Source: Diaminobutyricimonas aerilata (lineage in GTDB: Bacteria; Actinomycetota; Actinomycetes; Actinomycetales; Microbacteriaceae). From it: DNA of 64,000 nucleotides. This document shows, one piece after another, positions 6,208 to 29,968 of this stretch (its first letter is position 1; each line of letters opens with the position of its first letter). The DNA lies in contig NZ_PGFF01000001.1 in NCBI RefSeq assembly GCF_002797715.1, positions 2,875,304 through 2,939,303 on the forward strand, written 5' to 3'. The notes under the pieces are model-generated. The model saw only the letters and a list, made by a program, of their open reading frames with translations. It was not told where the DNA came from and searched no databases. The position numbers and the translations under genes were made by a program.

Positions 6208-6270
6208 CCGTTCCACCGTATCCACTCACGCCGCACTTCCCGCGCCGCTCGACCTGCCTCCTTCGTCGAG

Positions 6271-6330
6271 CGTGCCCGTTCCGGACGAATCCGCCGGCGT
6301 TTGGGCCCGCGGGAGTCCGGAACGGGCACG
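6271..6330. repeat. Long palindrome, copy 1 (16-base arms)
   Basis: Perfect 16-base inverted repeats at 6271-6286 (CGTGCCCGTTCCGGAC) and 6315-6330 are separated by 28 bases. The same arm, extended to 21 bases, recurs at 7412-7475. The right arm ends 11 bases beyond the stop of the broken AbiEi-like gene, so it could also act as its terminator. The sharing of arm sequence with a second copy points to a dispersed repeated extragenic palindrome rather than a simple terminator. Confidence 0.8.
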
Positions 6331-6340
6331 GTCGGCGATG

Positions 6341-7282: not shown

Positions 7283-7411
7283 ACCGCTAAGGATGAGCAA
7301 CGGTGCACTCCCGGCGTCCGTCGGCCTGCGCCGCTGTGGCCGGGGCGTGCACCGTCCCGCTTGTGCGGGAGTGGCGTCGGATCGCGCGACGAGGGGCGAC
7401 TCAGCCGCCCA

Positions 7412-7475
7412 ACGTGCCCGTTCCGGACCGCGCAAAGGGTTTTCGCCGCCTAAGCGGTCCGGAACGGGCACGTTC
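7412..7475. repeat. Long palindrome, copy 2 (21-base arms) in the 408-base gap 7283-7690
   Basis: Perfect 21-base inverted repeats at 7412-7432 and 7455-7475 share the core GTGCCCGTTCCGGAC with copy 1; the 22-base spacer differs. It lies 130 bases upstream of the broken AbiEi-like gene, so the two copies bracket that gene. The rest of the gap holds no gene. It does contain three GAAACG units in close succession (about 7494-7520) before the cohesin gene, whose promoter must lie here, but no clear -35/-10 pair could be assigned. Confidence 0.8.
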
Positions 7476-7690: not shown

Positions 7691-8410
7691 ATGACAACTC
7701 CCTCCCGCCGCCGCGGGCTCGCCCCGGCCTTCGCCGCCGGAGCACTCGCCCTCGGCCTCACGCTCACGGGCGCCGCGCCGGCGCTCGCGGCACCGTCGGC
7801 TTCTGCAGTGACCATCACGGCGACTCCGACCGTCGACGTCGGCGGCACCGTCGACGTCGAGGTCGGCCTGACCGGCGCCGTCGACCTGTATGCCGCCCGA
7901 TTCACCGTCACGTTCGACCCGACGCTGCTGAGCTACGTCGACGGAAGCACGACCGGTCCGAGCGGCGGATTCGACTCCGTCACCACCGGTCCCGGCACGG
8001 TCACCGTCGTGCACTCGCGCCTCGGAAGCTCCCCCGCCCTCGCCGGCGACATCCCGTGGTCGCTCGACTTCGTCGCCGTCGCCCCCGGATCCGGCACGGT
8101 CGGCGTGCAGTCCGTGGAACTCGTCGACCCGCAGGGCGCCACGACCGCGGTCGACGGCACCGACGAGGCCCCCGTCACCGTCAACGGCGTCGTGACCGAG
8201 CCCGACCCCGGCACCGGTGGCGGCGGAACCGGCGGGGGCGGCGCCTCCCCCGGAGCCGGCACCGGCACCGGCACTGCGAGCGGCGGCAACGCGGACGACG
8301 CGCTCGCCGGCACCGGTGCCGCCGTGACCGGTGGCCTCGTCGCCGCCGGACTGCTGCTCGCCGCGGGCGTCGTGCTCGTGCTCCGCCGCCGCGCCGCGAG
8401 GGTCTCGTGA
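7691..8410 (+). CDS. Membrane-anchored cohesin-domain protein
   Basis: The 239-residue protein has a signal peptide (basic start, hydrophobic core 11-33, cleavage near ALA-AP at 31-34). A single domain at about 38-168 resembles type I cohesins: VDVGGTVDVEVGLTGAVDLY followed by AARFTVTFDPTLLSYVDG, then a late strand with GSGTVGVQSVELVDPQG. A Gly/Thr linker (174-199) leads to LAGTG (205-209), a hydrophobic helix (213-231) and an RRR tail, a degenerate LAxTG sorting signal. Cohesins bind calcium-dependent dockerin modules, and the next gene encodes a secreted amidase with a dockerin-like module. The inferred role is therefore a one-site surface scaffold for that enzyme. The ATG at 7691 is chosen because it starts directly before the signal peptide; the open frame upstream is not protein-like. 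Fold assignment is by motif reading, not by search. Confidence 0.8.
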   Translation: MTTPSRRRGLAPAFAAGALALGLTLTGAAPALAAPSASAVTITATPTVDVGGTVDVEVGLTGAVDLYAARFTVTFDPTLLSYVDGSTTGPSGGFDSVTTGPGTVTVVHSRLGSSPALAGDIPWSLDFVAVAPGSGTVGVQSVELVDPQGATTAVDGTDEAPVTVNGVVTEPDPGTGGGGTGGGGASPGAGTGTGTASGGNADDALAGTGAAVTGGLVAAGLLLAAGVVLVLRRRAARVS

Positions 8411-8416
8411 CCGCCC

Positions 8417-8434
8417 GCGTCCCGCACGGGACGC
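8417..8434 (+). other. Small intergenic hairpin between cohesin and amidase genes
   Basis: GCGTCCC and GGGACGC pair across a four-base loop, directly after the cohesin stop and 42 bases before the amidase start. It has no T-tract. It may be a processing or attenuation site between two cotranscribed genes. Its significance is weak because short GC hairpins are frequent in this DNA. Confidence 0.3.
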
Positions 8435-8475
8435 AGCACGCAACCACCTCCTCCCGCCTTCCGAGAAAGAGCACG

Positions 8476-10317
8476 ATGACCCTCCCCCGCACCCGCGCGG
8501 TGATCGCCACCGCCTCCGGTACCGTCGCCCTCCTCGCGGTCGGCGGCATCACGGCCCTGCCGGCGAACGCCGCCCCTCCGACGACGATCGGCACCGCCGA
8601 GGCCGGCGCCCTGCTGGCGCCCTACTACACGGACCTCGACCTCACGGGCGACGACTCCGTCACGCAGGACGACCTGGCGCTGGTCGCCGCCCACCTCGGC
8701 GCGACCCCGGCCGACCCGGCCTGGCCGACGGTCGCGACCGCGGATGCCGATGCCGACCAGCTGCTCGAGCTCGTCGATCTCGCCGAGGTGTCGAGCCGCA
8801 TGGTCTACGACGACGGGCCGTTCGAACTCATCGAGTCGTCGGCGATCGACCTTCAGGCCGCGATGAACGCGGGGGTCACGACCTCTGTGGCGATCACGCA
8901 GGAGTACCTCGACCGGATCGCCGCGTACGACCGCACGGTCGTCGACACCTCCGGCACCGGCCGCGCGCTCAACTCCATCATCACCGCGAGCGACGAGGCG
9001 CTGGCCACCGCCGCCGCGGCGGACGCGGAGCGGGCCGCGCACGGGATGACGAGCATCCTGCTCGGGGTGCCGGTCGTCGTGAAGGACAACTACGACACGG
9101 CCGACATGCCGACGACAGGCGGATGCGGCTGTTGGGACGCCAACCAGACCGCCGACGACGCGGCGATGGTGAGCGGTCTGCGCGCGCAGGGCGCCGTCAT
9201 CCTCGCGAAGGCGAGCCTTGACGAGTTCGCGTTCGGCTTCGTCTCCGAGTTCTCCGCCTTCCAGACGGGGGGCACCAGCACCCTCGTCGCGAGCCCGTAC
9301 AGCACGTCGCGCACCGCCGGCGGGTCGAGCGGCGGGACCGGCGCGGCGATCGCCGCCAACCTTGGGGCGATCGGATTCGGCACGGACACGGGCGGATCGA
9401 TCCGCGTGCCGTCGTCGTACAACCAGCTCGTCGGCATCCGACCGACCGTGGGTCTCGCGAGCCGGGACGGGATCATCCCGCTCGCGCTGAGTCAGGACAC
9501 CGGTGGACCGATGGCGCGCAGCGTCGCCGACGCGGCGATCGCGCTCGACGCCGTCGCCGGCGTGGACCCCGCCGATCCGATCACCGCCCAGCAGGAGGGC
9601 CTCGTGCCCGACTCGTACACCGAGTACCTCGACCCGACCGCCCTGCAGGGCGCGCGGATCGGCTACGTCGCGTCGATGATCGGCTCCAACCCGACGACGC
9701 TGCGCCTGTGGACGCAGGCGAAGGCTACGCTCGAGGCGCAGGGTGCGACGGTGGTCGAGGTGACCCCGCCGGCCGGGTTCTCGGCGGTGCTGAGCGAGCC
9801 GAGCGGCAGCACGAACGAGTTCAAGCACGACCTGAACGCGTACATCGCGGCCCACCTCGCCCCGGGGGTGGAGGCTCGCTCGCTGCAGGGCATCCTCGCC
9901 ACCGGCCGGTACGTGCCGTCGCGACAGGGCACCTACCAGTCGCGCGACCAGGTGACCGAGGAGACCTACCAGGCGTGGGCTGGCCCGACGGGCACCCACA
10001 CGACGGCGATCGCGTCGGGCAAGGCACTCGTGACCTCGTGGATGGACGAGCAGGATCTCGACAGCCTCGTCTACCCGTCCGGCAACCCGTACGGCACCCA
10101 GGGCACCAACCTGCGGCTGAGTCCGAACACGGGGATGCCGTCGATCTCGGTGCCGATGGGTCAGGCGACCGCCGAGGAGAGCATCCCGGGCGCCGGCGTG
10201 AACCTCGAGTTCCTCGGACGCCACTACGCGGAGGGCACCCTCATCGGGCTGACCTACGCGTTCGAGCAGGCGACCGGCGCGCGCACGTCGCCGGCGCTGT
10301 ACGGCCCGCTCGGCTGA
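8476..10317 (+). CDS. Secreted amidase (amidase-signature family) with N-terminal dockerin-like module
   Basis: The 613-residue protein has a signal peptide (1-32). It is followed at about 52-112 by two dockerin-type calcium-loop segments: DLDLTGDDSVTQDDLALVAA and, after a linker, ADADADQLLELVDLAEVSSR. Each has alternating Asp residues followed by a hydrophobic helix. Residues 120-613 form an amidase-signature hydrolase with an intact Ser-cisSer-Lys triad: Lys203 in VVVKDNYDTADMP, cis-Ser284 in TAGGSSGGTG and nucleophile Ser308 in FGTDTGGSIRVPSSYNQ. The family cleaves amide bonds of varied small molecules or peptides; the substrate here cannot be told. A dockerin on a secreted amidase is unusual. 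The cohesin protein encoded 65 bases upstream is the obvious partner. A GAGAAAGAG ribosome-binding site precedes the ATG. Confidence 0.88.
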   Translation: MTLPRTRAVIATASGTVALLAVGGITALPANAAPPTTIGTAEAGALLAPYYTDLDLTGDDSVTQDDLALVAAHLGATPADPAWPTVATADADADQLLELVDLAEVSSRMVYDDGPFELIESSAIDLQAAMNAGVTTSVAITQEYLDRIAAYDRTVVDTSGTGRALNSIITASDEALATAAAADAERAAHGMTSILLGVPVVVKDNYDTADMPTTGGCGCWDANQTADDAAMVSGLRAQGAVILAKASLDEFAFGFVSEFSAFQTGGTSTLVASPYSTSRTAGGSSGGTGAAIAANLGAIGFGTDTGGSIRVPSSYNQLVGIRPTVGLASRDGIIPLALSQDTGGPMARSVADAAIALDAVAGVDPADPITAQQEGLVPDSYTEYLDPTALQGARIGYVASMIGSNPTTLRLWTQAKATLEAQGATVVEVTPPAGFSAVLSEPSGSTNEFKHDLNAYIAAHLAPGVEARSLQGILATGRYVPSRQGTYQSRDQVTEETYQAWAGPTGTHTTAIASGKALVTSWMDEQDLDSLVYPSGNPYGTQGTNLRLSPNTGMPSISVPMGQATAEESIPGAGVNLEFLGRHYAEGTLIGLTYAFEQATGARTSPALYGPLG

Positions 10318-11460: not shown

Positions 11461-14400
11461 TTACGACCGGCTCTGTTCGCGGCGGCGACGCGCGGCGAGC
11501 AGGAGCAGCACACCACCGGCGATCAGCACGCTCAGCGCGAGCACGATCGAGGAGGCGAGCGTCACACCGGTCGCGGCGAGCGCGTTGCCGACCACGACGA
11601 ACGGGTCGTCGTCGGCGACCGTGACGACCTCGCCGTCGCGGTCGAGCAGCAGCACCGGGGTGCCGTCGGGGTTCACCGACGGGTCGCCGGTCGGCACGCC
11701 GTCGTCGTCCGTGGCGGGCACCACGGCGTCGGCGATCACGTCGACACGGTCCTGGTGCATGCCGGCGCCGGCGATGAGGGTGCCCTCCGCGTAGAACGAC
11801 TGACCGGGGGCGAGGATGCCCGTCCACGGCCCGCTCCTCACGAAGCTGTAGTCGGCGGGACCGCCGACCGGCGAGAGGTCCGCCGTCCAGTCGTCACCGA
11901 TCTTCGCGCCCTGCACCGTGATGTCCGACAGGCGGATGTTGGTGAGGTGCGTGTTGCCGGTGTTGGTGACCACCCAGCGCACCTTCACGGTCGACCCGGG
12001 CTGGGTCGTGACCGCGTGCTGCGCGTCGTTCGCCGTGGTGCCGGCGGGCACGTCGGGCTTCGACGGGATGATCCAGTCGCCGTTGGCGTCCTTCACCCGC
12101 GGGTCCTCGTCGGCCCCGTTGTACTTGATCACCTGGATCGCGGCGGTGACGGCGTTGTAGTCGTCACGGTCGCTGACGGCGATGCCGGAGCCGGCGCCCA
12201 CCGCGTCGACGCGCGCGCGGTCGACGTGCGGCTGCTGCGATCCGGTGACCGTGAGCTGCGCGGTTCCGGTGATCACGGCGTCGGGCGCCCACGTGGCGGT
12301 GCCGGCACCGAAGGTGTCGGCCCACTGCGCGGTCCAGCCGGTCGGGGTCGGCGTGGCGGCCACGGTCTCGCCGGTCGGGAAGGTCCAGACCAGCTCGCGG
12401 ATCTCGCCGCCGGCGAGGTTCTCGTCGGTTAGCGTCACCGCGCGCAGCGGCTCGTCGCCCGTGTTCGTGACGGTGAAGACGATGGTGCGAGTCTCGCCCG
12501 GCGTGTAGAACTCGGCCTCCGGCATGGTGTCGGCGTCGTGCTCGATGGTGGTGCCGTCGCCGTCACCCTTCTCGATGTCGACGAACGGTCCCTCACCCGT
12601 GCGGGCGTTGAACGGGTCGTCGTCGTCGACCGTCACCGGGTCGCCGTTCTCGTCGATCGCGACGATCGGGTCGCCTTCGGGGTCCACGGCCGGCTCACCG
12701 GTCGGGGTGCCGTCGGGGCCGACCTCGGGCTGCACGATCGTGCCCACCACGTCGACGGTGTCGGTGTGGTTGGTCAGCGCCGGCAGCGTGAGGGTGCCTT
12801 CGGCGAAGAACGAGGCACCGGGCGGCAGGATGCCCTGCCACGGGCCGTCCTCGACGAAGCTGTAGTCCGCCGGACCGCCGAACGCGGTCAGGTCGGCCGT
12901 CCAGTCGCCGTCGATCGCCGGGCCCGCGTCGGTCGTGTCGACGAGCGTGATGTCGGTGAGCGACGTCGTGCCCGTGTTGGTCACGACCCAGCGCACCGTG
13001 CGCGGCGTCTGCACCGGGTACTCGACCGCCTCGTCCGCCGTGTTGGCGTCCTGAGCGGCATCGGTCAGCGGCTTGGCCGGGATGACCCACTCGTCGCCGT
13101 CGCGGACGGCCGGGTCGGCCTTCTCACCGTCGTACTTGATGACCTGGATGTCGCCCGTGAAGGCGTTGTAGTCGTCCTCGTCGCTGACGGGGGTGCCCGA
13201 CGCGGCGCCGACCGCGGTCACCGCGGCGGTGTCGACGTGCGGTTCACCGTCGAGCGCGACCGTGAGGGTGGCGGTGCCGGTGACGACCTCGCCCGTCTTC
13301 CACGTGGTGGTGCCGGGTGCGAAGGTCGCCGCCCACGGCGCCTCCCATCCGCCGTCGACCTGGGTCGCGGGGAGGGTCGAACCGTCGGGCAGCGTGAACA
13401 CGAGGTTTTCGACCGTGCCGCCGGAGACGGTGCTGTCGGTGAACGTCACGTTCCGCAGCTCGTCCGCGCCGGTGTTGACCACGCGGAACATGATCGTGCG
13501 GGTCTCGCCCGGCTCGTACACCTCGCCGTCGCTCATCGTGTCGGCGTCGTTCACGATGCTCGTGCCGGTGCCGTCGCCCTTCTCGATGTCGACCGCGGGT
13601 GCGACCGTGGTCGGGTTGTCGAGCTCGATGGCGGTGGTGGTGTCGTCACCGATGGTGAGGGATGCGGTGCCGTCGCCGTTGTCGGTCACTCCGGCGCCCG
13701 ACCACGTCGGGGTGCCGAAGCCGACGCCCGCGGGGGTGCCGGTGGGCACGTCCTCGGAGAGAGTCACGACGGTGCCGTACGGGATGTCATCGGAGGTGAC
13801 GACCGTGCCGTCGGGGCTCACGGTGAGGGTGCCCGGCGTCGCGAGACCCGGATAGGTGTAGCGCACCGTGAAGTCCTGCTCGTCGCCCACGAGCGCCTCA
13901 CCGGGACCGGTGACGTCCTTGAGGATCGAGAAGCGGCCGGGCTCGAAGAGCTCATTCGTCACGACGAAGGCGAAGGGGGCGCCGGGCGTGACCAGCTGGG
14001 CGGTCGACGGCGTCACCGTGACCGACCGGTACTGGTCGCTGTCCTGCTCCGTCACGGTCACCCGGGTGCCGACCGGAACGGTCACCGGCGCGCTCGTCTG
14101 GCCCGCGGTGAGCGTCACCGTCTCGAATTCGCCGAGCGAGATGGGCAGGCCGCGGAAGTCGGTCGCGGCAGGGTCGAGCACGAAGGTCTGGTCCGGCGCC
14201 GGCTCGGCGCCGTCACCCGAGACCCGCTTCTCGATGGTGAACGATCCGCTCGCGATGTAGCCCGCGTCGATCGTGTGGTCGTTCTCGCCGGGCCCGCCGG
14301 TCGTGAAGTCGTACTCGCCGGTCACCGTGTCGGGGTTCGATCCGGTCGTCGAGTCCGTCAGCTCGCGCTGGGTGAGGTCGATCGCGCTCCAGGGCACGAC

Positions 14401-16608
14401 GCCGAACACGTCGGGATCGAGCGGCGCATCGCCGGTCGTCGGGGCGACGAAGCGCACGGTGTAGTCGGTGTTCGTGGTCAGGTCGGGGTCGAAGTACTCC
14501 GAGGTCGGGTCGGACGAGAAGTAGTAGTTGCCGTCCGCATCCGTGGTGCGGGTTCCGACGACGTTGCCGTCGGCGTCGACCAGCTCGACGGTCACGCCGG
14601 CAAGCGGCGGCTCGTCGGCATCCTGAATGCCGTCCTGGTCGGCGTCGAACCACACGCGGTTGCCGATCTCGATCGGCGCCGCCTGCGCGAGCAGGCTGAT
14701 GCCGCCGAGGCCGCCACCCTTCTGGAAGTTGCCGCCTTCACCGCCACCGCCGCCATCGCCGTTGAGCTCGTAGCCCGCGACCGCGGCCCCGTTGTCGACG
14801 TCCATCCACATCAGGCCGGCGAGGCGGATGCCGCCCAGCGGGTCATACACGGTCGTGACGACCTCACGCGAGCCGCGCAGACCGGCGAGGTGCCCGAGGG
14901 CGACCTCGTGGTGGCTGCTGCCGGCGCCGAGGTTCTGCCCGTCGTCGTAGAAGTTGCGTCCGCCCGGGCCCTGGTTGCCGAGAGTCGACGCTCCGGTGCG
15001 GGCACCGGCGACGCCGTTGTCCTCGAGCACGAAGGTGCCGTTCGCGGTCGGAGCCGCGATGAGGATGTCACCGCTCGCGCCGCCCTCGTAGTTGGTGCCG
15101 GGCACGGCCGGGTCGCTCGCGACGCTGCGGTTGCCCGCCTGGAGCTGCGTGCGGTCGGTGAAGCCGAGGCTCAGGTAGCCGTCCTCGTCGAAGTAGAGGT
15201 CGGAGAGGATCGGCTGCGGGTAGATCTGCCAGCCGCCGTTGTTCTCGGCGACCCGGCCGCCGGCCCACGTCCACGTGCCGGTCCAGGTGTTCCAGCGCTG
15301 ACTCTGCGGCGCGAGCGCGTTGTTGTAGACGTCGCCCTTGGTGTAGTCGAGGTCGCCGTCGAAGACGGATGCCCACGCGCCGCTGAGGTTGTTGAGCGGC
15401 CGCTTGATCACGTGCGCCTGCAGACCCGCGGCGGCAGCGGAGACGCCGGGCACGAAGCCCGCATCCGTCTCGCCGCTGTCGACGTAGCCGACGTAGAGCT
15501 CGCCGCGGTAGAGGGTGAGCCCGTAGGGGCGCTCGCCCGTGCCGAGGCCGAGGTCATACGACTGGAAGCCCGTCGGCGGGGTGGTCGGGTCGGAGATGTC
15601 GAGGGAGTACAGCTTCTTGTCGAAGAGGTTGACGAAGTAAAGCGTGCGTCCGTCGGGGCTGATCGCCATGTCGCCGATGCCCACCGTGCCCGCCTTCGCG
15701 AACGCGTCCGTGTCGCGCACCGGCTTCTGGTGACCACCGAGCTCGCGCTCGGCGTTCGTCTGCGCGGCGCCGACGTCGATGCCGATCGCCTCGACGTCGA
15801 GCCAGTTCTCCACGGCGCCCGCGCCGCTGGGCTCGTTGCCGACCATGGCGTCGGTCACGCGGTAGATGCCGCCAAGACCGAGCGGGCCGAGGCCGCTCTG
15901 CCGCTTGTAGACCGCCGCGGTGAAGATGCTGTTACTCGAGGACTGGTAGACGTTGCTCGAGACGGCACCGACCTCGCCGAACGTGGCGAGGGTCACGCGG
16001 TTGGGGAAGCCGGTGGGCTGGCCGCCCTCGGGGCGGGCGTAGCCGTCACCGTAGCTGACGCCGGCGAGCGCCGGCTCGCCGGCCTTCGTGCCGCCGTCGG
16101 CGGGGACGGGCGAACCGGCCCACTGGATCGCCGTCACCAGCGGGGCGTTGCCCTGGCTGTAGTCCTCGGGGGCGTTGACGGCGAAGTCCGCACCGGAGGT
16201 GCCGACGGTGACGAACTGCACCGAGGTGCCGTTGCTGCCGCTGGGTCCGTGCACGGGTCCGGGCTCGTATCCGGCGGGAAGGCCGGTGAACTCGAGGCGC
16301 AACGCGTCGCTGTGTGCGTCGTCGACGAGCAGCGAGTAGCTGCCGTCGGCCTGCGACGCGGCGGTCCACGACTCACCGAGCGCGTCGTACGCGGTCACGA
16401 TGACGCCGGCGAGACCCGCGTCGACGGCTGCGCCGGTGGCGGTGCCGGTCGTGGTGTCGCGGATGCCGTCGCCGTCGAAGTCACGGAAGACGTAGCCGCT
16501 GACGGTGCCGTCGGCGGCGCTCGCCGGCGCGGCGCCGGCGAGGGTGAGGCCGGTGACGGCTACAAGGAAGGCGGTCGCTCCAGCGAGCGATCGGGGGGCG
16601 CGGAACAT
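11461..16608 (-). CDS. Giant cell-surface protein: SdrD-B, propeller-like, DUF5979-like and DUF11-like modules, LAATG anchor
   Basis: The product has 1715 residues. A signal peptide (1-31) is followed by an SdrD-B-like domain (about 35-145, GYVFRDFDGDGIRD). A 470-residue region contains propeller-like phrases (IGDMAISPDGRTLYFVNLFD, RPYGLTLYRGELYVGYVDSG). A second SdrD-B module comes near 646 (NRVWFDADQDGIQDADEPPL), then two DUF5979-like modules (GSFTIEKRVSGDG near 789, FSILKDVTGPGE near 893). A two-fold repeat of about 330 residues follows: VDIEKGDG at 1006 and 1344, IQVIKY at 1156 and 1489. It ends NALAATG, a transmembrane helix and an Arg-rich tail, a class E sortase signal. The inferred role is a wall-anchored adhesin or receptor. 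The ATG at 16608 is set by GAGGAG four bases upstream; the open frame beyond it overlaps the DyP gene and is not protein-like. Confidence 0.88.
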   Translation of the reverse strand: MFRAPRSLAGATAFLVAVTGLTLAGAAPASAADGTVSGYVFRDFDGDGIRDTTTGTATGAAVDAGLAGVIVTAYDALGESWTAASQADGSYSLLVDDAHSDALRLEFTGLPAGYEPGPVHGPSGSNGTSVQFVTVGTSGADFAVNAPEDYSQGNAPLVTAIQWAGSPVPADGGTKAGEPALAGVSYGDGYARPEGGQPTGFPNRVTLATFGEVGAVSSNVYQSSSNSIFTAAVYKRQSGLGPLGLGGIYRVTDAMVGNEPSGAGAVENWLDVEAIGIDVGAAQTNAERELGGHQKPVRDTDAFAKAGTVGIGDMAISPDGRTLYFVNLFDKKLYSLDISDPTTPPTGFQSYDLGLGTGERPYGLTLYRGELYVGYVDSGETDAGFVPGVSAAAAGLQAHVIKRPLNNLSGAWASVFDGDLDYTKGDVYNNALAPQSQRWNTWTGTWTWAGGRVAENNGGWQIYPQPILSDLYFDEDGYLSLGFTDRTQLQAGNRSVASDPAVPGTNYEGGASGDILIAAPTANGTFVLEDNGVAGARTGASTLGNQGPGGRNFYDDGQNLGAGSSHHEVALGHLAGLRGSREVVTTVYDPLGGIRLAGLMWMDVDNGAAVAGYELNGDGGGGGEGGNFQKGGGLGGISLLAQAAPIEIGNRVWFDADQDGIQDADEPPLAGVTVELVDADGNVVGTRTTDADGNYYFSSDPTSEYFDPDLTTNTDYTVRFVAPTTGDAPLDPDVFGVVPWSAIDLTQRELTDSTTGSNPDTVTGEYDFTTGGPGENDHTIDAGYIASGSFTIEKRVSGDGAEPAPDQTFVLDPAATDFRGLPISLGEFETVTLTAGQTSAPVTVPVGTRVTVTEQDSDQYRSVTVTPSTAQLVTPGAPFAFVVTNELFEPGRFSILKDVTGPGEALVGDEQDFTVRYTYPGLATPGTLTVSPDGTVVTSDDIPYGTVVTLSEDVPTGTPAGVGFGTPTWSGAGVTDNGDGTASLTIGDDTTTAIELDNPTTVAPAVDIEKGDGTGTSIVNDADTMSDGEVYEPGETRTIMFRVVNTGADELRNVTFTDSTVSGGTVENLVFTLPDGSTLPATQVDGGWEAPWAATFAPGTTTWKTGEVVTGTATLTVALDGEPHVDTAAVTAVGAASGTPVSDEDDYNAFTGDIQVIKYDGEKADPAVRDGDEWVIPAKPLTDAAQDANTADEAVEYPVQTPRTVRWVVTNTGTTSLTDITLVDTTDAGPAIDGDWTADLTAFGGPADYSFVEDGPWQGILPPGASFFAEGTLTLPALTNHTDTVDVVGTIVQPEVGPDGTPTGEPAVDPEGDPIVAIDENGDPVTVDDDDPFNARTGEGPFVDIEKGDGDGTTIEHDADTMPEAEFYTPGETRTIVFTVTNTGDEPLRAVTLTDENLAGGEIRELVWTFPTGETVAATPTPTGWTAQWADTFGAGTATWAPDAVITGTAQLTVTGSQQPHVDRARVDAVGAGSGIAVSDRDDYNAVTAAIQVIKYNGADEDPRVKDANGDWIIPSKPDVPAGTTANDAQHAVTTQPGSTVKVRWVVTNTGNTHLTNIRLSDITVQGAKIGDDWTADLSPVGGPADYSFVRSGPWTGILAPGQSFYAEGTLIAGAGMHQDRVDVIADAVVPATDDDGVPTGDPSVNPDGTPVLLLDRDGEVVTVADDDPFVVVGNALAATGVTLASSIVLALSVLIAGGVLLLLAARRRREQSRS

Positions 16609-16877
16609 GGTCTCCTCTGGGGGATGGTGCTCGGGCGGAGGCCGCGCGCGGGCGAAGCGTCCAACCATCAGATGGCGTGATGCCGTGGTTATGACGCGTG
16701 TTCGCGGAATCTCCGTGAGGAGGGTTCCGTTCGCCGTCGCGCGGCAACAGGATGCCGTCGCACTCGAGGGGTTATCGGGGGTGACGCCGTCCCAGACCGG
16801 CGCCGCAACCGATAGTAGCGGGAGCGGAGCGCGGACGATGATCTTTTCGCCGCGGAAATCCCGTGCCGGTCGACCGC
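16609..16877 (-). promoter_or_regulatory. Upstream region of the 1715-residue surface gene
   Basis: This 269-base gap separates the DyP stop from the adhesin start. A TACTAT hexamer (minus strand, 16812-16817) is the best -10 candidate; no matching -35 is clear. An imperfect hairpin at 16711-16735 (GGAA-CTCC against GGAG-TTCC) and a C-rich motif on the minus strand at about 16764-16778 lie between it and the start. No separate terminator for the DyP operon could be recognised. Confidence 0.35.
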
Positions 16878-18101
16878 TCAGCCGTGGAGTGCCACGAGCG
16901 CTGCGCCGAGCGGCCGATCGCGGTCGAATCCGGGCAGGATCACGAACGTCGCCGACCCGGTGGGCGTGACGAATTGTGACAGCGCGTCGACCTCGTCGAG
17001 CCGTTGCTGCGTCGCGGTGAAGGTGCGGAGCGAGCGCTGGAAGCACACGAACAGCAGCCCGGTGTCGGCGACCCCGTCGACGTCGCCGTCGTCGAACGTG
17101 TAGCCGCGGCGCAGCATGAGCTCGCTGCCGGTGAACGACGGATGCGCGGCGCGCGCGTGCGCGTTCGCGGGCACGAGGTACTCGCCCTCGGGCGTCTTCG
17201 CCCGCAGGTCGACCTGGTCGCGCGGACCACCGCCGGAGAGGGGTGCACCGTCGCCGGCGCGACGACCGAACACGGCCTCCTGCTCGCCCCGCGAGCGGGC
17301 GTGGAAGGCGTTGACGTCGAGCCGGAGGCGACGGATGACGCACACGGTGCCCTGCGCGAGCGGGCCGTCGGGAATCCACACGTTCTCGTCGAACTCGGCG
17401 TCGCCGCGCGGCACCACGACGCCGTCGAGGAACCCGAGCGGGTTGCGCACGATCGTGCCCTCGCTCGGGGCGCGGAATCCGCGCTGATCCCACCGCTTCG
17501 TCGCGCCGGGCACCGCCGCGGCGACGAGGTCGAGAACGGGCCGCAACGCGGTGGGGTCGGAGCAGTACGCGGCGAGCAGCACGTCGCCGCCGCGGCGGGA
17601 GTCGGGGATGGCCCCGTCGTTCTTGAAGTCGGGCAGCTCCTCCGCGCCGGGCAGCGCCGGGTCGACCGACGCGATTACCCGCGGTCCGAGACCCACCGTG
17701 ATGCTCAGGTCGCCGGCGCCGTCGGGAAGGATCGTCGCGGCATCCGGATGCGAACCGTCGACGATGTCGAGGATGAGGTCGCCGAGCGCGGCGAGCCAGC
17801 CGAGGTCGGTCGAGGGGAGGTCGAGCGCGAGCAGCCGTCCGTGGGATTGCGGGGTGTCGGGGCGGCGGATGCCCGCCTGCTGCCGCCCGGCCGCCTCGAC
17901 GCGGGGCAGCTTCGGGTCTTCGGTGCTGGGCTTCCCGCCCGTGACCGGGGCGGTCGCCCATCCGGTCGCCGCTCCCCAGCCGACGCCTCCGGCGACGGCA
18001 CCGGTGACGAGTCCCCCGAGGCCGAGCAGCACGGAGCGGCGTCGCATGCCGTGCGGCTCGGGCGGTGTCGGCGTCCCGGACGGTGTGGGCGTCTCAGCCA
18101 C
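16878..18101 (-). CDS. Tat-exported DyP-type peroxidase
   Basis: DyP peroxidases are haem enzymes that oxidise bulky substrates; EfeB members also take iron from haem. The 407-residue protein starts with GTG and carries a twin-arginine signal (MRRRSVLLGLGGLVTGAVAG, about residues 19-38). The family GxxDG motif appears as GFLDG near 222-226. The proximal-His region (NAHARAAHPSFTG, about 314) and the RRGYTFDDGDVDGVADTGLL block are present. The GTG overlaps the stop of the lipoprotein gene by eight bases (GGTGGCTGA), so the two are coupled. No efeU or efeO neighbour is present, so a ferrous-uptake role is not supported; cargo of the upstream lipoproteins or general oxidant handling is possible. 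Confidence 0.88.
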   Translation of the reverse strand: MAETPTPSGTPTPPEPHGMRRRSVLLGLGGLVTGAVAGGVGWGAATGWATAPVTGGKPSTEDPKLPRVEAAGRQQAGIRRPDTPQSHGRLLALDLPSTDLGWLAALGDLILDIVDGSHPDAATILPDGAGDLSITVGLGPRVIASVDPALPGAEELPDFKNDGAIPDSRRGGDVLLAAYCSDPTALRPVLDLVAAAVPGATKRWDQRGFRAPSEGTIVRNPLGFLDGVVVPRGDAEFDENVWIPDGPLAQGTVCVIRRLRLDVNAFHARSRGEQEAVFGRRAGDGAPLSGGGPRDQVDLRAKTPEGEYLVPANAHARAAHPSFTGSELMLRRGYTFDDGDVDGVADTGLLFVCFQRSLRTFTATQQRLDEVDALSQFVTPTGSATFVILPGFDRDRPLGAALVALHG

Positions 18102-20221: not shown

Positions 20222-20351
20222 GATCGAGGAGGGCGCCCCGCGCCCGTATCCCTCGCCGATCGAGTAGGGCGCCCCGCGCCCCTATCGAGATCTCCATGAC
20301 GAAGAAGCTCCGTCGTGGGGGTTTCGATACGGGCGCTGGCGCGCCCTACTC
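20222..20351. repeat. Dispersed repeat cluster: two direct copies and one inverted copy
   Basis: Two 29-base units (20222-20250 and 20258-20286) match at 27 of 29 positions around TAGGGCGCCCCGCGCCC. An inverted relative occupies 20326-20351 (GATACGGGCGCTGGCGCGCC and on). A further truncated relative lies at the window end (63978-64000). The inverted copy runs into the stop codon of the 2965-residue gene. The arrangement could form a large hairpin after that gene and so double as its terminator. Confidence 0.7.
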
Positions 20352-23300
20352 AACCGGCGAGCTTGGACGACGAACGGCGGCGACCGAACCAGAACAGCAG
20401 CGCACCGGCGCCGAGGAGTGCGAGCACCCCGCCGGCGATCGGCAGCACGACCGCACCGGTCGCGGCGAGCGGCCGCACGATCTCGAGGGCCGTGTCGCAC
20501 CGCCCGTCGGCGAGGCACCAGCCGCCGATCTCCGAGTCGGGCAGCACCGTGTTGAGCATCCGGTTGTCACCGCCGTTCTCGTTCACGACGAACGAGTAGG
20601 TGATGAGCGAGATGTCGCCGACCGCCAGGGCACCCGACCAGGTGAGCGTCGGCGCCGCGTACGTCGTGCCCGCCGGGGCGTCGCCGGCGTACGTGGCGTC
20701 GTCGAGCACTCGCGAGAAGTCGTCCACGAAGGTGGCCGGCTGCTCGTCCGTGTACTCGACCTGGCCGTTGTTGACGACCGTGACGGTGTAGGTCACCCGG
20801 TCGCCCGGCTTCACGGTGCCCTGCGCATCCGACGTCTTGGTCGCGATGTACGACCGCACGAGGGTGCGCGTGGCGCAGTCGGGGTCCGTCGAGGCGGCCG
20901 AGCAGTTGCTCGGAACCTCGTCGGGCGTCGACACGACGTTGTCGAGGATGCCGTCGCCGGTGACCGGGGCGTTGATCGTCACGGTGTAGGTCACGACCAC
21001 GGCCGCGCCGCGCTCGAGCGGTCCACTCCAGCTCAGCGTGCCGCCGGAGACCGCGGCGCCGTCGACCTCGTCGCCGTCGATCGTGGCACGCACGTCGCCG
21101 TTGTAGACAGCGTCGTCGAGCACGGCCGACAGGCTGTCGGTGAACGACGCCGGACGTTCCTCGGTCCAGTCGAGTCCGCCGTCGTTGGTCATCGTGATCT
21201 CGTACTCGACCGTGTCGCCCGGCAGGGCCACCTCGGTCGACGAGGTCTTCACGACGGCCACCGACGGTCCGCCGGTCGTCACGTCACACGACGGGTCGTC
21301 GCTCGTGTCGGTGCAGTTCGATCCGATCGTGGGCGAGGTGACGCGGTTGTAGAGCACCTTGTCGCCGGGGATGGGGTCGCGCACCGTGACCGTGTAGGTG
21401 TACTCGATCACCTGGTCGACCGCGAGCGGGCCCGTCCAGGCGAGCGTGTCGATGCCGTCCCAGGTCACGCCGCCGGTGGCGTCGTCGTTGTAGACGGCGT
21501 CGTCGAGCACGTCGGTCAGCGGGTCGGTCCACACCACCGGGGTGGCGTCGTCGTAGGCGACCTCGCCGGTGTTGGTGAGCACGATCGTGTACTCGACGAC
21601 CTCGCCCGCCACGACCTCGGTCTTGTCGGCCGACTTCTCGATGCGGAACGAACGCACGAGCGTCTCGGTCGCACAGTCGGGGTCGGTCGAGTCGGCCGCG
21701 CAGTTCGACGGCGTGCCCGGAGGGGTCACGATGCGGTTGTCGAGCCGGTTGTCGCCGAGGTTCGGGTTCGCGATCTGCACCTGGTAGGTGACCGTCGCGG
21801 TCACACCCGCGGCGAGCGGACCCTCCCAGTGGATCGCCCGCAACGTTTCGTCATAAGACGCCTGTCCCGCGGACGAGTCGAGCGCGAGGCTCTCCTCCGT
21901 CACCGGGTCGACGTCGTCGAGGATGCGCGTGAGGCTGTCGTCGAACGATGCCGGCGTGCCGGCCGTGAAGTCGACGGCACCCGTGTTCTCGACCGTGATC
22001 TCGTATTCGATCACGTCGCCCTGCAGGGCCACCTCGTCGGAGACCGTCTTCGTGTAGTGCAGTGAGCGGACGGGCGTGACGGTCTTGCAGTCCGGTACCG
22101 TCGCGGCGGCACAACCGCCCTCGGGAGCGGTCAGCACGGCGTTCTCGAGGATCGCGTCACCGTCACTCGTGCGCGGATCGCTCACGACCACCGAGTACTC
22201 GATGGTCGTCGTGCCACCGATCGGGAGATCCCCCGCCCACGAGATGACTCCGGTCGCCGCGTCGAACGTGGCGCCGGCGCTCAGGCCCAGCGGGCCGGTC
22301 GCGTCATCCAGCACATCCGCCAGGTCATCCGTGAACGTCGCCTGCAGCGGCGCCGCATACGCGACCTGCCCGATGTTCGTGACCGTCACCTCGTAGGTGA
22401 TCGTGTCGCCGGGCTCGGCCTGCGTCTGCGAGACCGTCTTGACGGTGTCGTAGGCACGGATGGGCGTGTTCGTCGCGCAGATCCCGCACTCACCGCCGGG
22501 AGCGGTCGGCTCCACAACGTTCTCGAGCAGGTAGTCGGCACCCGCGGCGAGCGGAGCGTCGACCTGCACCCGGTAGGTGAGGGTCACGACGCCGTCGACG
22601 GGCAACTCACCGGACCAGCGAAGCTCTCCGGCCGCGAAGGTGGGCAGGTTGTCGCTGTCACCCGCGACCGCGAGGTCGGTCGGGTTGCCGGCGACATCGA
22701 GCACGTCGGACAGATCGTCGACGATCGAGGCCGGGTCGGCATCCGTGAAGGCGACCGTTCCCGTGTTCGTGACCGTGATCGTGTATTCGACGATCCCGCC
22801 TGGCAACGTGGAGCCCGGGGTCGCGCTCTTCTCGACGAGGTAACTACGCACCGGCGTGTCCGTGGTGCAGACACCGTCCGCGGCGCAGACGCCGTTCTCA
22901 CTCGTGACGGTGTTGACCAGCCGGTGGTCGCCCACATCCGGGTCATCAACGGTCACGGTGTAGGTGATGGTCACCTCGTCGCCCGCTTCACCGGGCAGGG
23001 CCAGTGGCCCTTCCCAAAGGATCGAGCTGCCCACGACGGTCGCCTCACCGGCACCGGCCGGAGAGATCACGGGGTCGCTGAGCTCACCCGCGTCATCCAG
23101 CACACCCGAGAGGTCATCCGCGATGTCCGCGGGCACGTCATCCGTGTACTCGACGGCACCGGTGTTGCGCACCGTGATCGTGTACGTCAGCTCCTGACCC
23201 TCGGTCGCCGCCTCGGCATCCACCGACTTCTCATACTCGAACGAACGGATCCGCACCTCGGTGTCGCAACTCTCGTCGTCGACACACGACCCGCCGGGCC

Positions 23301-26300
23301 CCGTCGGCGTGACGCCGTTCACGAGAATGCTCTCATCGGCGCCCGTCGCGATCACGGTGTAGCGGATGACGTGCACGCCATCGATCGGCAGCGCGCCGCT
23401 CCACGTCAGTACGCCGTTGGCAACGGTCGCCCCGCCCTGCAGCACCGTGCCGAACGTCGCGTCGTCGAGCACGTCGGACAGGTCATCCGTAAGCGAAGCA
23501 CTCGTGTCCGGCGTGGCACCGTCGTACGCCACATGACCGGTGTTGCGCACCGTCACCGTGTAGACGACCGTGTCGCCGACCTCGACGACCTCCGGGGTCA
23601 CCGTCTTTTCGGTCGTGTACTCACGCACCAACACGAGAGCGTCGCAGTCCTCGTCCGTCGAGAACGGAGTGCAGTTACCACCACGGCCGGGAGGCGTGAC
23701 CACGCGGTTCTCCATGCGGTGGTCACCCGCATCCGGGTCATCGATGTCGACCGTGTACTCGAGCTCGACGGTCTCCTCGACCGCGAGCGGTCCGGTCGCG
23801 GTCAGCACGCCGTCGACCACGTCGACCACCCAGCCGTCGGGCTCCGCCGTGACCTGGAGCCCGCCCGAGTCGCCGAGGATGTCGGTGAGGTCGTCGATGA
23901 TCTGCGCGGCCTCAGCGCCGGTGCCGGTGTAGTCCTCGGCGCCGGTGTTGGTGATCGAGATCGTGTAGGTCACATCCTGTTGACCCGGCTCGACGATCGG
24001 GTCGCTCACCGTCTTGACGACCTCGTAGCTGCGGGTCGGGATCTCGACCTGGCAGCGCGGATCGGCGTCGTCGATGTCGGTTGCCGGGTCGCAGTTGCCG
24101 CCCACGGCGGTCGTCTGCGCGCGGTTGACCATGCGGTCCGGCGGCGTGACGACAGACGTGATCTCGACGCTGTACGTGATGGTCACCGGGGCACCGTCGA
24201 CCGGAAGGTCGCCGACCCAGGTGATGGTGTCGGTCGCGTCGTCGAAATCGGCGGTGCCGGTGCTCGAGGTGACCGTGCCGTCGAAGCTCGCGTTCTGCAG
24301 CACGTCGCCGATTGGGTCGGCGATGCTCGCCTGCGGCTCGCCGGCACCCGCCGGGTAGGGCACGCGACCGGTGTTGCGCACGGTGATCGTGTACTCGACC
24401 GTGTCACCGACCTCCGCAACCTTGGTGTCGGCGGTCTTGATCAGCTCGTACGACTGCACCGGGGTGTTCGTGCCACAGGCGGGGTCGGTCGAGCCGGTGT
24501 CGCAGTTCGCAAGCCCTGGGGGTGTGGTGATCGTGTTGATCAGCTGGTGGTCGCCGCGGTCGGGGTTGTCGACGAGCACGTCGTACTCGATCGTCACCGT
24601 GCCACCCAGTGGCAGCGGGCCCTCCCACGCGAGCACGGAGCCCGAGTAGGTGGCGTCGCCCGCGGTCCACGTGACGGTGCCGGGGATGATGTCACCGTCG
24701 TCGTCGAGACCGACGAGCTGACCGTCGTCGACGATGCCGGCGAAGGAGTCGCGGAAGGAGGCCGGGTAGGCGTCGGTGAAGGGCACCTGCCCGGTGTTGG
24801 TCACCACGATGGTGTAGCTGACGGTGCCGCCCGGGTTGGTGTAGGCGGGGTCGGCCGTCTTCTCCACGCGGAACTGCGCGATCGGGGTGGACGTGTCGCA
24901 CGCGCCCGCCTCGGCGCAGCTGCCACCGGGGCCGGTCGGAGTGACAGTGTTGTTGAGCACCTGGCTCGCAGCGTTCGGGGTCTGCTTCACCGTCACCGTG
25001 TAGGTGAACGTGCGCGACTGACCGACGCCGAGCGATCCCGACCAGGTCAGGTTCGTACCGGTGAGCACGGCACCACCGGTCGCGGTGCCGGTGAAGTCCG
25101 CGTCATCCAGCACATCCGCCAGGTCGTCGGAGAAGGAGGCGACATCCGCACCGACACCGGTGTACGGCACCTGCCCGGTGTTGCGGATCGTCAGCGAGTA
25201 CGACACCACGTCGCCGCGCACGACCGGGGTCTCGGCGGTCGACTTCTCCACCGTGTACGACTGCACCAACACTGTGGCGTCGCACAGCGGGTCGGTCGAG
25301 TCGGCGTCGCAGTTGTTGCCCGGCGTCTCGGAGACGATCCGGTTCACCAAACGGTCATCGCCCGGGTTCGGGTTCTTGATCCGCACCTGGAAGGAGAACG
25401 ACGTCTCGCCGCCGACGGCGAGAGCACCGGTCCAATCGACCGAGTCACCATCGAACGTCGCACCATTGGTCGCACTCCCGGCGACTAAGTCCGCATCGAC
25501 CAGCACATCGGTCAACGGGTCGGACACCGATGCCGGGTAGCCGGGCACCGTGTACGCCACCTGCCCGGTGTTACGCGCGGTGACCGTGTAGGTCACGACG
25601 TCACCCGCGCGAGCCGTGGCCACGTCGGAGGTCTTCTCGAACTGGATGCCCGGGATGAGGTGCTCGGTCGAGCACGGGTCGCACTCGATGCCCGTCGGCG
25701 GCGTCACGACGTTGCGCAGCACGTCGTCGCCGTCGCCGTTCACCTCGACGGTGTAGCTGATCGTGTACGTCTGGCCGGGCGCGATCAGCGGAGCCGTCCA
25801 CGACAGCACCGTGCCGTTCACGCTCGCCGTGCCGAGCGGGGCACCGTCGACGCTCGTCGTGATCACCGGATCGCCGACGAGGTCCGCATCATCCAGCACC
25901 GCGGCGAGGTCGTCGGTGAACGCCGGGTTCCGCCACGGCGCCGGGCTGTCCGCCGGCTCTGTCACCGTGACCGAGTAGGTGATCTCATCGCCCGGGAGCA
26001 CGGCCGAGCCGCTCGCCGGGGTGGAGCTCTTCGCGATCGTGTAGGGCAGCGGCACGACGAATCCGGCGGGGTCGCTCGGGGTGAGCTGCGGTCCCTCCGG
26101 CGGAGTGACGGTCGCGGTCGCGGTGTTGATCGTCGTGCCGAGGCCCGCGGTCATCGAGCACTGGATGACCGACTCCGCACCGCCGGCGAGCGTGGCGACC
26201 GTGGTCGCGCACGACGGGGCGAGCGGGTCGGAGACGACGATGTTGGTCAGTGTTCCGGTGCCCTTGTTGCTCAGCACGAAGCGGAACGGCACCGTCGCGC

Positions 26301-29247: not shown

Positions 29248-29401
29248 CGCGTTCCCCTTGCTGTACGCCGGCTTCACCCAGAAATCCGGACCCCCCGGAA
29301 ACGGCGTGACCTCAGTCTGCGTGACCGAAGACGCTTCGGAAACCCCGAAGCTGACAACGAGCCGATAACGATGCACCCCAGAAACGGGGGTCGCGAGCCC
29401 G
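29248..29401 (-). promoter_or_regulatory. Upstream region of adhesin A: leader hairpin and C/G dyad
   Basis: The gap between the 188-residue gene and adhesin A holds a perfect 7-base hairpin (29333-29339 with 29345-29351). It also holds the dyad CCCC-N6-GGGGG at 29376-29390, centred 136 bases upstream of the start. The proximal 60 bases, including TTCCGGGGGGTCCGG on the minus strand, match the region before adhesin B, so the leader was copied with the gene. No other terminator for the upstream operon is visible. Confidence 0.5.
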
Positions 29402-29968
29402 TCAGCGCGTGGTCGCCCGGCGGCGAGCTCCATGCCAGAAGAAGACGGCCGCTCCGACACCGACGATGACCGCGGCGCCGCCAAGGATAAGAGGGACCGG
29501 CGAGCCGGCCATCGTCCCCGACGTCTCGGTGAGGCCGCGAACAGAGGGGGGCGCATCCATGCCGGCTATGGCATCGGCGTCGACGGCGCGGACGAGCGTC
29601 GTGCCGGGCGAGGTCGTAGCCGCCACAGACGCCGTAGTGACCACCTGGTAGTCCTTCTCGGCGGGCTCCCCCACGGTGGCCGAGATCGAGAACTGACGGC
29701 TCTCGCCACCGGCGAGTTCGACCGGCCACGACGCCTCCCCGTCGAGGGAGACGTAGGGAGGGGCGGTCACCGTCACGGTCACCGCGGCGGGGGCACCGCC
29801 TTCGTTGCGCACGGTCGCGACGTAGTCGAGCACGTCACCGTCGCGGGCCTCGTCGACCCCGTCGCTCAGCTCGACCGAGACGACGGGGGCCTCGGCGGCT
29901 CCCGCCGGTGCTGCGAGGAGCAGCACCGGCAGGAGCGCGACCGTGGCGCCCGTGAGGCTCCGGATCAC
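29402..29968 (-). CDS. Small secreted membrane-anchored protein coupled to adhesin B
   Basis: The GTG start overlaps the stop of adhesin B (GTGA), which makes the 188-residue protein its translationally coupled partner. It has a signal peptide (VIRSLTGATVALLPVLLLAA, cleavage near GAA-EAP). One DUF11/NEW3-like domain (DGDVLDYVATVRNEGGAPAA, then a strand-rich region to about 125) follows, then a hydrophobic helix near 155-178 and an ARRRATTR tail. No LAxTG-like motif precedes the helix, so it should remain a simple membrane protein. The paralogue adhesin A has no such partner. Possible roles are an assembly or anchoring factor for the giant protein, or a minor subunit; neither is shown. Confidence 0.75.
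   Translation of the reverse strand: MIRSLTGATVALLPVLLLAAPAGAAEAPVVSVELSDGVDEARDGDVLDYVATVRNEGGAPAAVTVTVTAPPYVSLDGEASWPVELAGGESRQFSISATVGEPAEKDYQVVTTASVAATTSPGTTLVRAVDADAIAGMDAPPSVRGLTETSGTMAGSPVPLILGGAAVIVGVGAAVFFWHGARRRATTR

Follow-up and report, generated by a model that had tools for sequence, protein, structure and literature searches.

Cohesin-dockerin joints have been described chiefly in polysaccharide breakdown. Cohesin and type I-like dockerin modules of the kind found in the clostridial cellulosome also occur in two neighbouring genes (gene A and gene B) of Diaminobutyricimonas aerilata, within the window analysed here, a 64,000-nucleotide stretch of its genome. Among scaffoldins, anchor proteins that carry a sorting signal form one class, according to the available text of a genome survey (PMC11557425). 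The non-cellulosomal pairs of Clostridium perfringens (NagJ cohesin/NagH dockerin, PDB 2ozn; cohesins 2jh2, 2w1n and 2vo8) have single cohesins outside a scaffoldin, and these pairs are the closest structural matches for both modules of the window's type. Gene A and gene B probably form a 1:1, sortase-anchored, non-cellulosomal cohesin-dockerin enzyme module (Table 1).

The protein of gene A starts with an N-terminal signal (recognised by eye), followed by a single cohesin, a Gly/Thr linker, a LAGTG motif, a hydrophobic stretch and an Arg-rich tail; the original prediction had read the signal, cohesin, linker and LAGTG-plus-transmembrane anchor from the letters of the DNA. Residues 40-115 match Pfam Cohesin (PF00963) confidently, at 36.3 bits against a curated cut-off of 24.1, the sole such match in a Pfam search of the window's genome (3.49 Mb, one contig). 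The sorting motif LAGTG differs from LPXTG, and the tail scores 15.3 bits against the NCBIfam LAVTG model, under its cut-off of 27. Motif, hydrophobic stretch and basic tail are all present, and the genome has one sortase match; to judge from these features, sortase most likely attaches the gene A protein to the cell wall at LAGTG. A nucleotide-pattern search of genome contigs found no relatives of gene A. To model the cohesin fold, part of a naturally fused protein of Microbacterium sp. 2FI (locus L094, 67 alignment rows) was used as a stand-in for the window protein. The cohesin part of this predicted structure has pLDDT 91-98 and is closest to the C. perfringens cohesins (2w1n and 2jh2_B, Z 17.4; 2vo8, Z 17.3), with cellulosome cohesins ranking next (Z 15.7 and below); Foldseek gave 2jh2_A (E 6.8e-10), and the NagJ cohesin matches the cohesin sequence profile at about 1e-7.

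Elsewhere in the window, a long frame at 11461-17961 (-) has a terminal LAATG followed by a hydrophobic segment and Arg-rich residues; with repeats that by eye resemble those of SdrD-type surface proteins, it is a second wall-anchor candidate beside gene A and gene B. An opposite-strand gene lies between two related inverted repeats (7411-7474 and 6269-6332), whose arms are about 20 bases long; the former folds far better than shuffles (z -7.3), and the arms have just two further copies in the genome at up to 2 mismatches. At 20350-29556 (-) there is a frame of 3,068 aa that scores strongly as coding.

Table 1. Features of gene A and gene B in the window (residue numbers of gene B count from ATG 8476).
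Feature	Position	Strand	Basis
Gene A, single-cohesin secreted protein ending in a sorting-type anchor, 239 aa	7691..8410	+	Translation; Pfam Cohesin 36.3 bits
Cohesin domain of gene A, residues 38-166	7802..8188	+	Pfam match at residues 40-115; family alignment A2
LAGTG sorting-type motif of gene A	8303..8317	+	Motif position; similar tail in 69 of 73 cohesin loci including the window
Hydrophobic stretch of gene A, then Arg-rich tail	8315..8383	+	Sequence
GTGA start/stop overlap of gene A and gene B	8407..8410	+	Sequence; window row of locus comparison
Gene B from probable GTG start, secreted dockerin-amidase, 636 aa	8407..10317	+	GTG in frame, offset -1 from gene A stop; the same offset in 63 of the 80 named loci
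Gene B from downstream ATG, 613 aa	8476..10317	+	Reading frame; residue numbering of gene B throughout
Dockerin module of gene B, residues 46-114	8611..8817	+	Alignment A4; model pLDDT 91.6; structure matches
First calcium-type loop, gene B residues 55-66	8638..8673	+	D7/T9/D11/D18 of A1 invariant or nearly so
Second calcium-type loop, gene B residues 90-101	8743..8778	+	D42/D46/D53 of A1 invariant or nearly so
Amidase-signature catalytic domain of gene B, about residues 115-608	8818..10299	+	Pfam Amidase 265.5 bits; peptide amidase 5ac3, E 1.2e-71
Lys203 codon, putatively catalytic	9082..9084	+	Motif position; role as in known amidase-signature enzymes
cis-Ser284 codon	9325..9327	+	Motif position; role as in known amidase-signature enzymes
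Ser308 codon, putative nucleophile	9397..9399	+	Motif position; role as in known amidase-signature enzymes

A scan with the dockerin and the start of the enzyme, the cohesin being excluded, found 116 relatives, the best 80 of which are referred to as the named loci. They span Microbacterium, Curtobacterium, Leifsonia, Herbiconiux, Cellulomonas, Cellulosimicrobium, Georgenia, Demequina, Nocardioides and other genera. Gene B had been placed 65 bases after gene A, a distance that is correct for the ATG at 8476 (the 613-aa form), but an in-frame GTG at 8407 overlaps the stop codon of gene A. Because 63 of the 80 named loci have the same -1 overlap, gene B probably starts at this GTG, which would overlap gene A by 4 bases and lengthen the protein to 636 aa. 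In the 80 named loci and the window together, the enzyme start overlaps the cohesin stop by one offset in 64, abuts it at +2 in four, and is missing there in L075; three others are one-frame fusions, one (L103) has the reverse order, and eight lack upstream DNA. Overlap or abutment is thus found in 68 of 69 separate cohesin-enzyme pairs with the order of gene A and gene B, the window included. No other neighbour family occurs in more than 9 of 67 loci.

The cohesin is present in 72 of the 80 named loci; the other eight, cut by contig ends, have 458 bases or fewer ahead of the match. Counting the window, 69 of 73 cohesin loci have a tail consisting of motif, hydrophobic stretch and basic residues, which makes display the rule. 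The four anchorless loci all keep the cohesin: L100 and L114 (both Nocardioides) encode one chain with the order dockerin-amidase-cohesin, L094 encodes one chain with the order cohesin-dockerin-amidase, and L103 (Isoptericola) has the cohesin as a separate gene without a sorting tail. A further single frame, L033 (genome G339), has the order cohesin-anchor-dockerin-amidase. In an enzyme tree made by a quick method, with a long-branch warning, L094 groups with three unfused relatives under full support and lies well away from the Nocardioides pair, which indicates that fusion arose at least twice. Also in the tree, L105, on a contig named Stenotrophomonas maltophilia, sits among Microbacterium sequences and is probably contamination. 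The cohesin of Demequina sediminis (L061, 5012-5842) is split over two frames by a frameshift or a sequencing error.

Since the cohesin loci without an anchor include three in which the cohesin is fused to the enzyme, the cohesin may be a subunit of the enzyme and not a tether alone, and surface display, as originally proposed, may be too narrow a description of the pair. From the anchorless forms, the joint would seem useful in itself; where everything is in one chain, the dockerin could bind the cohesin of that same chain or connect one chain to the next, head to tail. A tentative alternative is that the cohesin is an obligate subunit required for folding, stability or activity, with the dockerin as a clamp for the partner domain and anchoring as a secondary matter. 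The retention of the cohesin in fused and tail-less forms alike, and its presence at every locus with enough DNA, are in keeping with such a role, whereas the near-universal anchor-type tail argues against it. If it were true, the cohesin-dockerin pair would shift from a scaffolding joint to an enzyme-assembly joint.

A sortase-anchored pair is favoured here, and the partnership of the two genes is strongly supported by their distribution. In a Pfam Cohesin search of 398 genomes of the same family, 20 matches were found, 19 of them over the cut-off, and 16 kb was taken around 19 relatives. A gene B homologue lies beside the cohesin in 18 of the 19; in the other (G154), 15 bases separate the cohesin from the contig end, and the enzyme lies on a different contig. 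By family profile, the full dockerin-amidase is present in 29 of the 398 genomes (E 3.9e-38 or better; the next matches, at E 1.7e-13 and worse, covered the amidase part alone and were left out). The cohesin is present in 28 (E 4.2e-20 or better, leaving out two weak matches with in-frame stops: G075, E 4e-4, and G366, E 5e-4), all within the 29. In the genome with an enzyme in which no cohesin was found (G056), the enzyme lies 166 bases from the contig start. Among 193 genomes of the same order, the cohesin and enzyme profiles mark the same eight. Fisher values for co-occurrence are 4e-42 (family) and 2e-14 (order), which ignore shared ancestry and so are not to be taken literally. The profiles depend partly on adjacency, A1 having been built from loci found via the cohesin and A2 from loci found via both; the whole-genome searches with A1 and A2 ignore neighbours, and score the candidates of a first look up to a set number. 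Chance adjacency of gene A and gene B is ruled out by co-occurrence across the 398 family and 193 order genomes. The anticipated co-conservation was borne out wherever there is enough DNA (28/29 in the family, 8/8 in the order, 72/80 named loci).

Across 376 genomes of the phylum, besides the window's own genome, the cohesin profile gave three weaker matches (L131, L132 and L133). All three are cohesin-like matches in frames of over 2,000 aa, in genomes of one genus that belongs to another family of the phylum.

The two dockerin-like loops foreseen near the N-terminus of gene B are present at residues 55-66 and 90-101, but the window's own module is under the Pfam cut-off: a 110-aa piece scores 15.6 bits against Dockerin type I (PF00404; cut-off 22.9), the whole gene B protein gives no row for this model, and a PF00404 search of the window's own genome gave no match. 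The Dockerin_1 assignment is better in the relatives. Matches were obtained for 19 of 19 family members at E 1 or better (best 1.2e-10), and among the 29 same-family genomes with the enzyme, a Pfam dockerin was found at E 0.001 in 24 and above the cut-off in 23. The window dockerin belongs to a family whose other members reach the Pfam cut-off. Its model (pLDDT 91.6, pTM 0.79) has a helix after each calcium-type loop. Foldseek gave no match to this model at E 0.001 or better, and the first nine rows are dockerins (E 0.04 to 0.4). In a second structure comparison, dockerin-bearing chains account for 26 of the 27 structure rows among the matches listed, the best being 2ozn_B (Z 7.8, rmsd 2.5 over 57 residues), which is the NagH dockerin from a solved cohesin-dockerin complex. 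With 2jh2, 2w1n and 2vo8 as the best cohesin matches, the closest folds for the two modules are therefore C. perfringens-type cohesins and a dockerin solved in complex with one.

The same loops could have another function. If they were EF-hand-like elements that stabilise the N-terminus of the enzyme, and the cohesin-fold protein bound something else, the two modules would not bind each other at all. EF-hand profiles match 10 of the 19 relatives, and when the sequence profile of the dockerin and amidase start was compared with solved chains, calmodulins came first and no dockerin was among the best 60 of 238. Docking was also not predicted in the cohesin-linker-dockerin model of the L094 fusion (pTM 0.63), where the dockerin part is at low confidence because the alignment had cohesin rows only. 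Such an arrangement is nevertheless unlikely, given the Dockerin_1 matches in all 19 family members, the predominance of dockerin-bearing chains in the structure comparison, the complete co-occurrence, the gene overlap, and the fusion of just these two genes.

The genome search that the original prediction had called for gave one cohesin and one clear dockerin of gene B's family in the window's genome. A reduced cellulosome, in which the cohesin takes several dockerin enzymes, is accordingly a very improbable reading, although 2 of the 29 same-family genomes with the enzyme (G320 and G359) each encode a further protein with a dockerin match, about 1,250 aa long. The remaining 27 have no second Pfam dockerin match at E 0.001, the family search found one cohesin match per genome and no two-cohesin gene, and no PF00404-bearing glycoside hydrolases accompany the single Cohesin match of the window's genome. 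The cellulosome reading was rejected on the one cohesin of this genome and the 27 genomes without a second dockerin.

The second dockerin-bearing proteins are L137 (1833-5609, +) and L138 (469-4191, -); Pfam finds a dockerin alone in them, which in L137 is below the cut-off.

Past the dockerin, gene B matches Pfam Amidase (PF01425) at 265.5 bits (cut-off 27) and has the complete Ser-cisSer-Lys triad that had been predicted, with motifs at residues 203, 284 and 308; we take the roles of Lys203, Ser284 and Ser308 to be those of known amidase-signature enzymes. All 98 complete relatives retain these motifs (the strict motif in 93 of 99 sequences, five more that keep the Lys in a varied context, and one cut by a contig end). 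NCBIfam names gene B an amidase, with no model above its own cut-off among the matches listed. The nearest solved chain is peptide amidase 5ac3 (E 1.2e-71, residues 114-606), the enzyme of Stenotrophomonas maltophilia. The peptide amidase of that organism (PDB 1m21, 1m22 and 5ac3) shares the amidase-signature fold and triad with gene B, the match starting at residue 114, past the dockerin. By sequence comparison, the gene B hydrolase appears closest to peptide amidases; its substrate, as a guess from the nearest solved enzyme, might be a peptide amide used as food, or an amide located in the wall or close to it.

These findings confirm the observation of a cohesin gene next to a dockerin-amidase gene and support its interpretation as a cohesin-dockerin pair. 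Coupled translation would produce the two proteins together, and both would be exported. The single sortase of the genome would presumably link gene A to the wall at LAGTG, with its one cohesin facing outward; the N-terminal dockerin of gene B may then load calcium and dock on this cohesin, which would hold the amidase-signature hydrolase at the cell surface.

Each of the modules is already known, as is the enzyme class, and their one-to-one pairing with an amidase is apparently undescribed so far: a search of open-access titles and abstracts found no description of a cohesin-dockerin amidase. The genome survey, as far as its available text goes, required at least two cohesins together with a dockerin-bearing glycosidase and so would miss the window's system (PMC11557425). 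The available texts of two other studies report no cohesin or dockerin modules in Cellulosimicrobium cellulans F16 (PMC4562250) or in the Cellulomonas genomes analysed (PMC3544764); the pair is present in strains or species of Cellulosimicrobium and Cellulomonas other than those. Several actinobacterial families thus have a cohesin-dockerin joint tied to a single amidase, most of the genomes having one receptor and one ligand, and a one-to-one pair of this kind would be a compact, naturally orthogonal coupling for enzyme display on high-GC Gram-positive cells.

The domain matches and the near-constant co-occurrence make the pair resemble a small, one-receptor, one-enzyme relative of the machines of cellulose degraders. 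No dockerin-bearing glycoside hydrolase or multi-cohesin scaffoldin was seen in the window's genome; in contrast to the clostridial cellulosome, the pair has one cohesin and one enzyme. Whereas the modules of C. perfringens, in the accessible descriptions, sit on glycoside hydrolases, those of the window are divided between a plain cohesin anchor and an amidase with an N-terminal dockerin.
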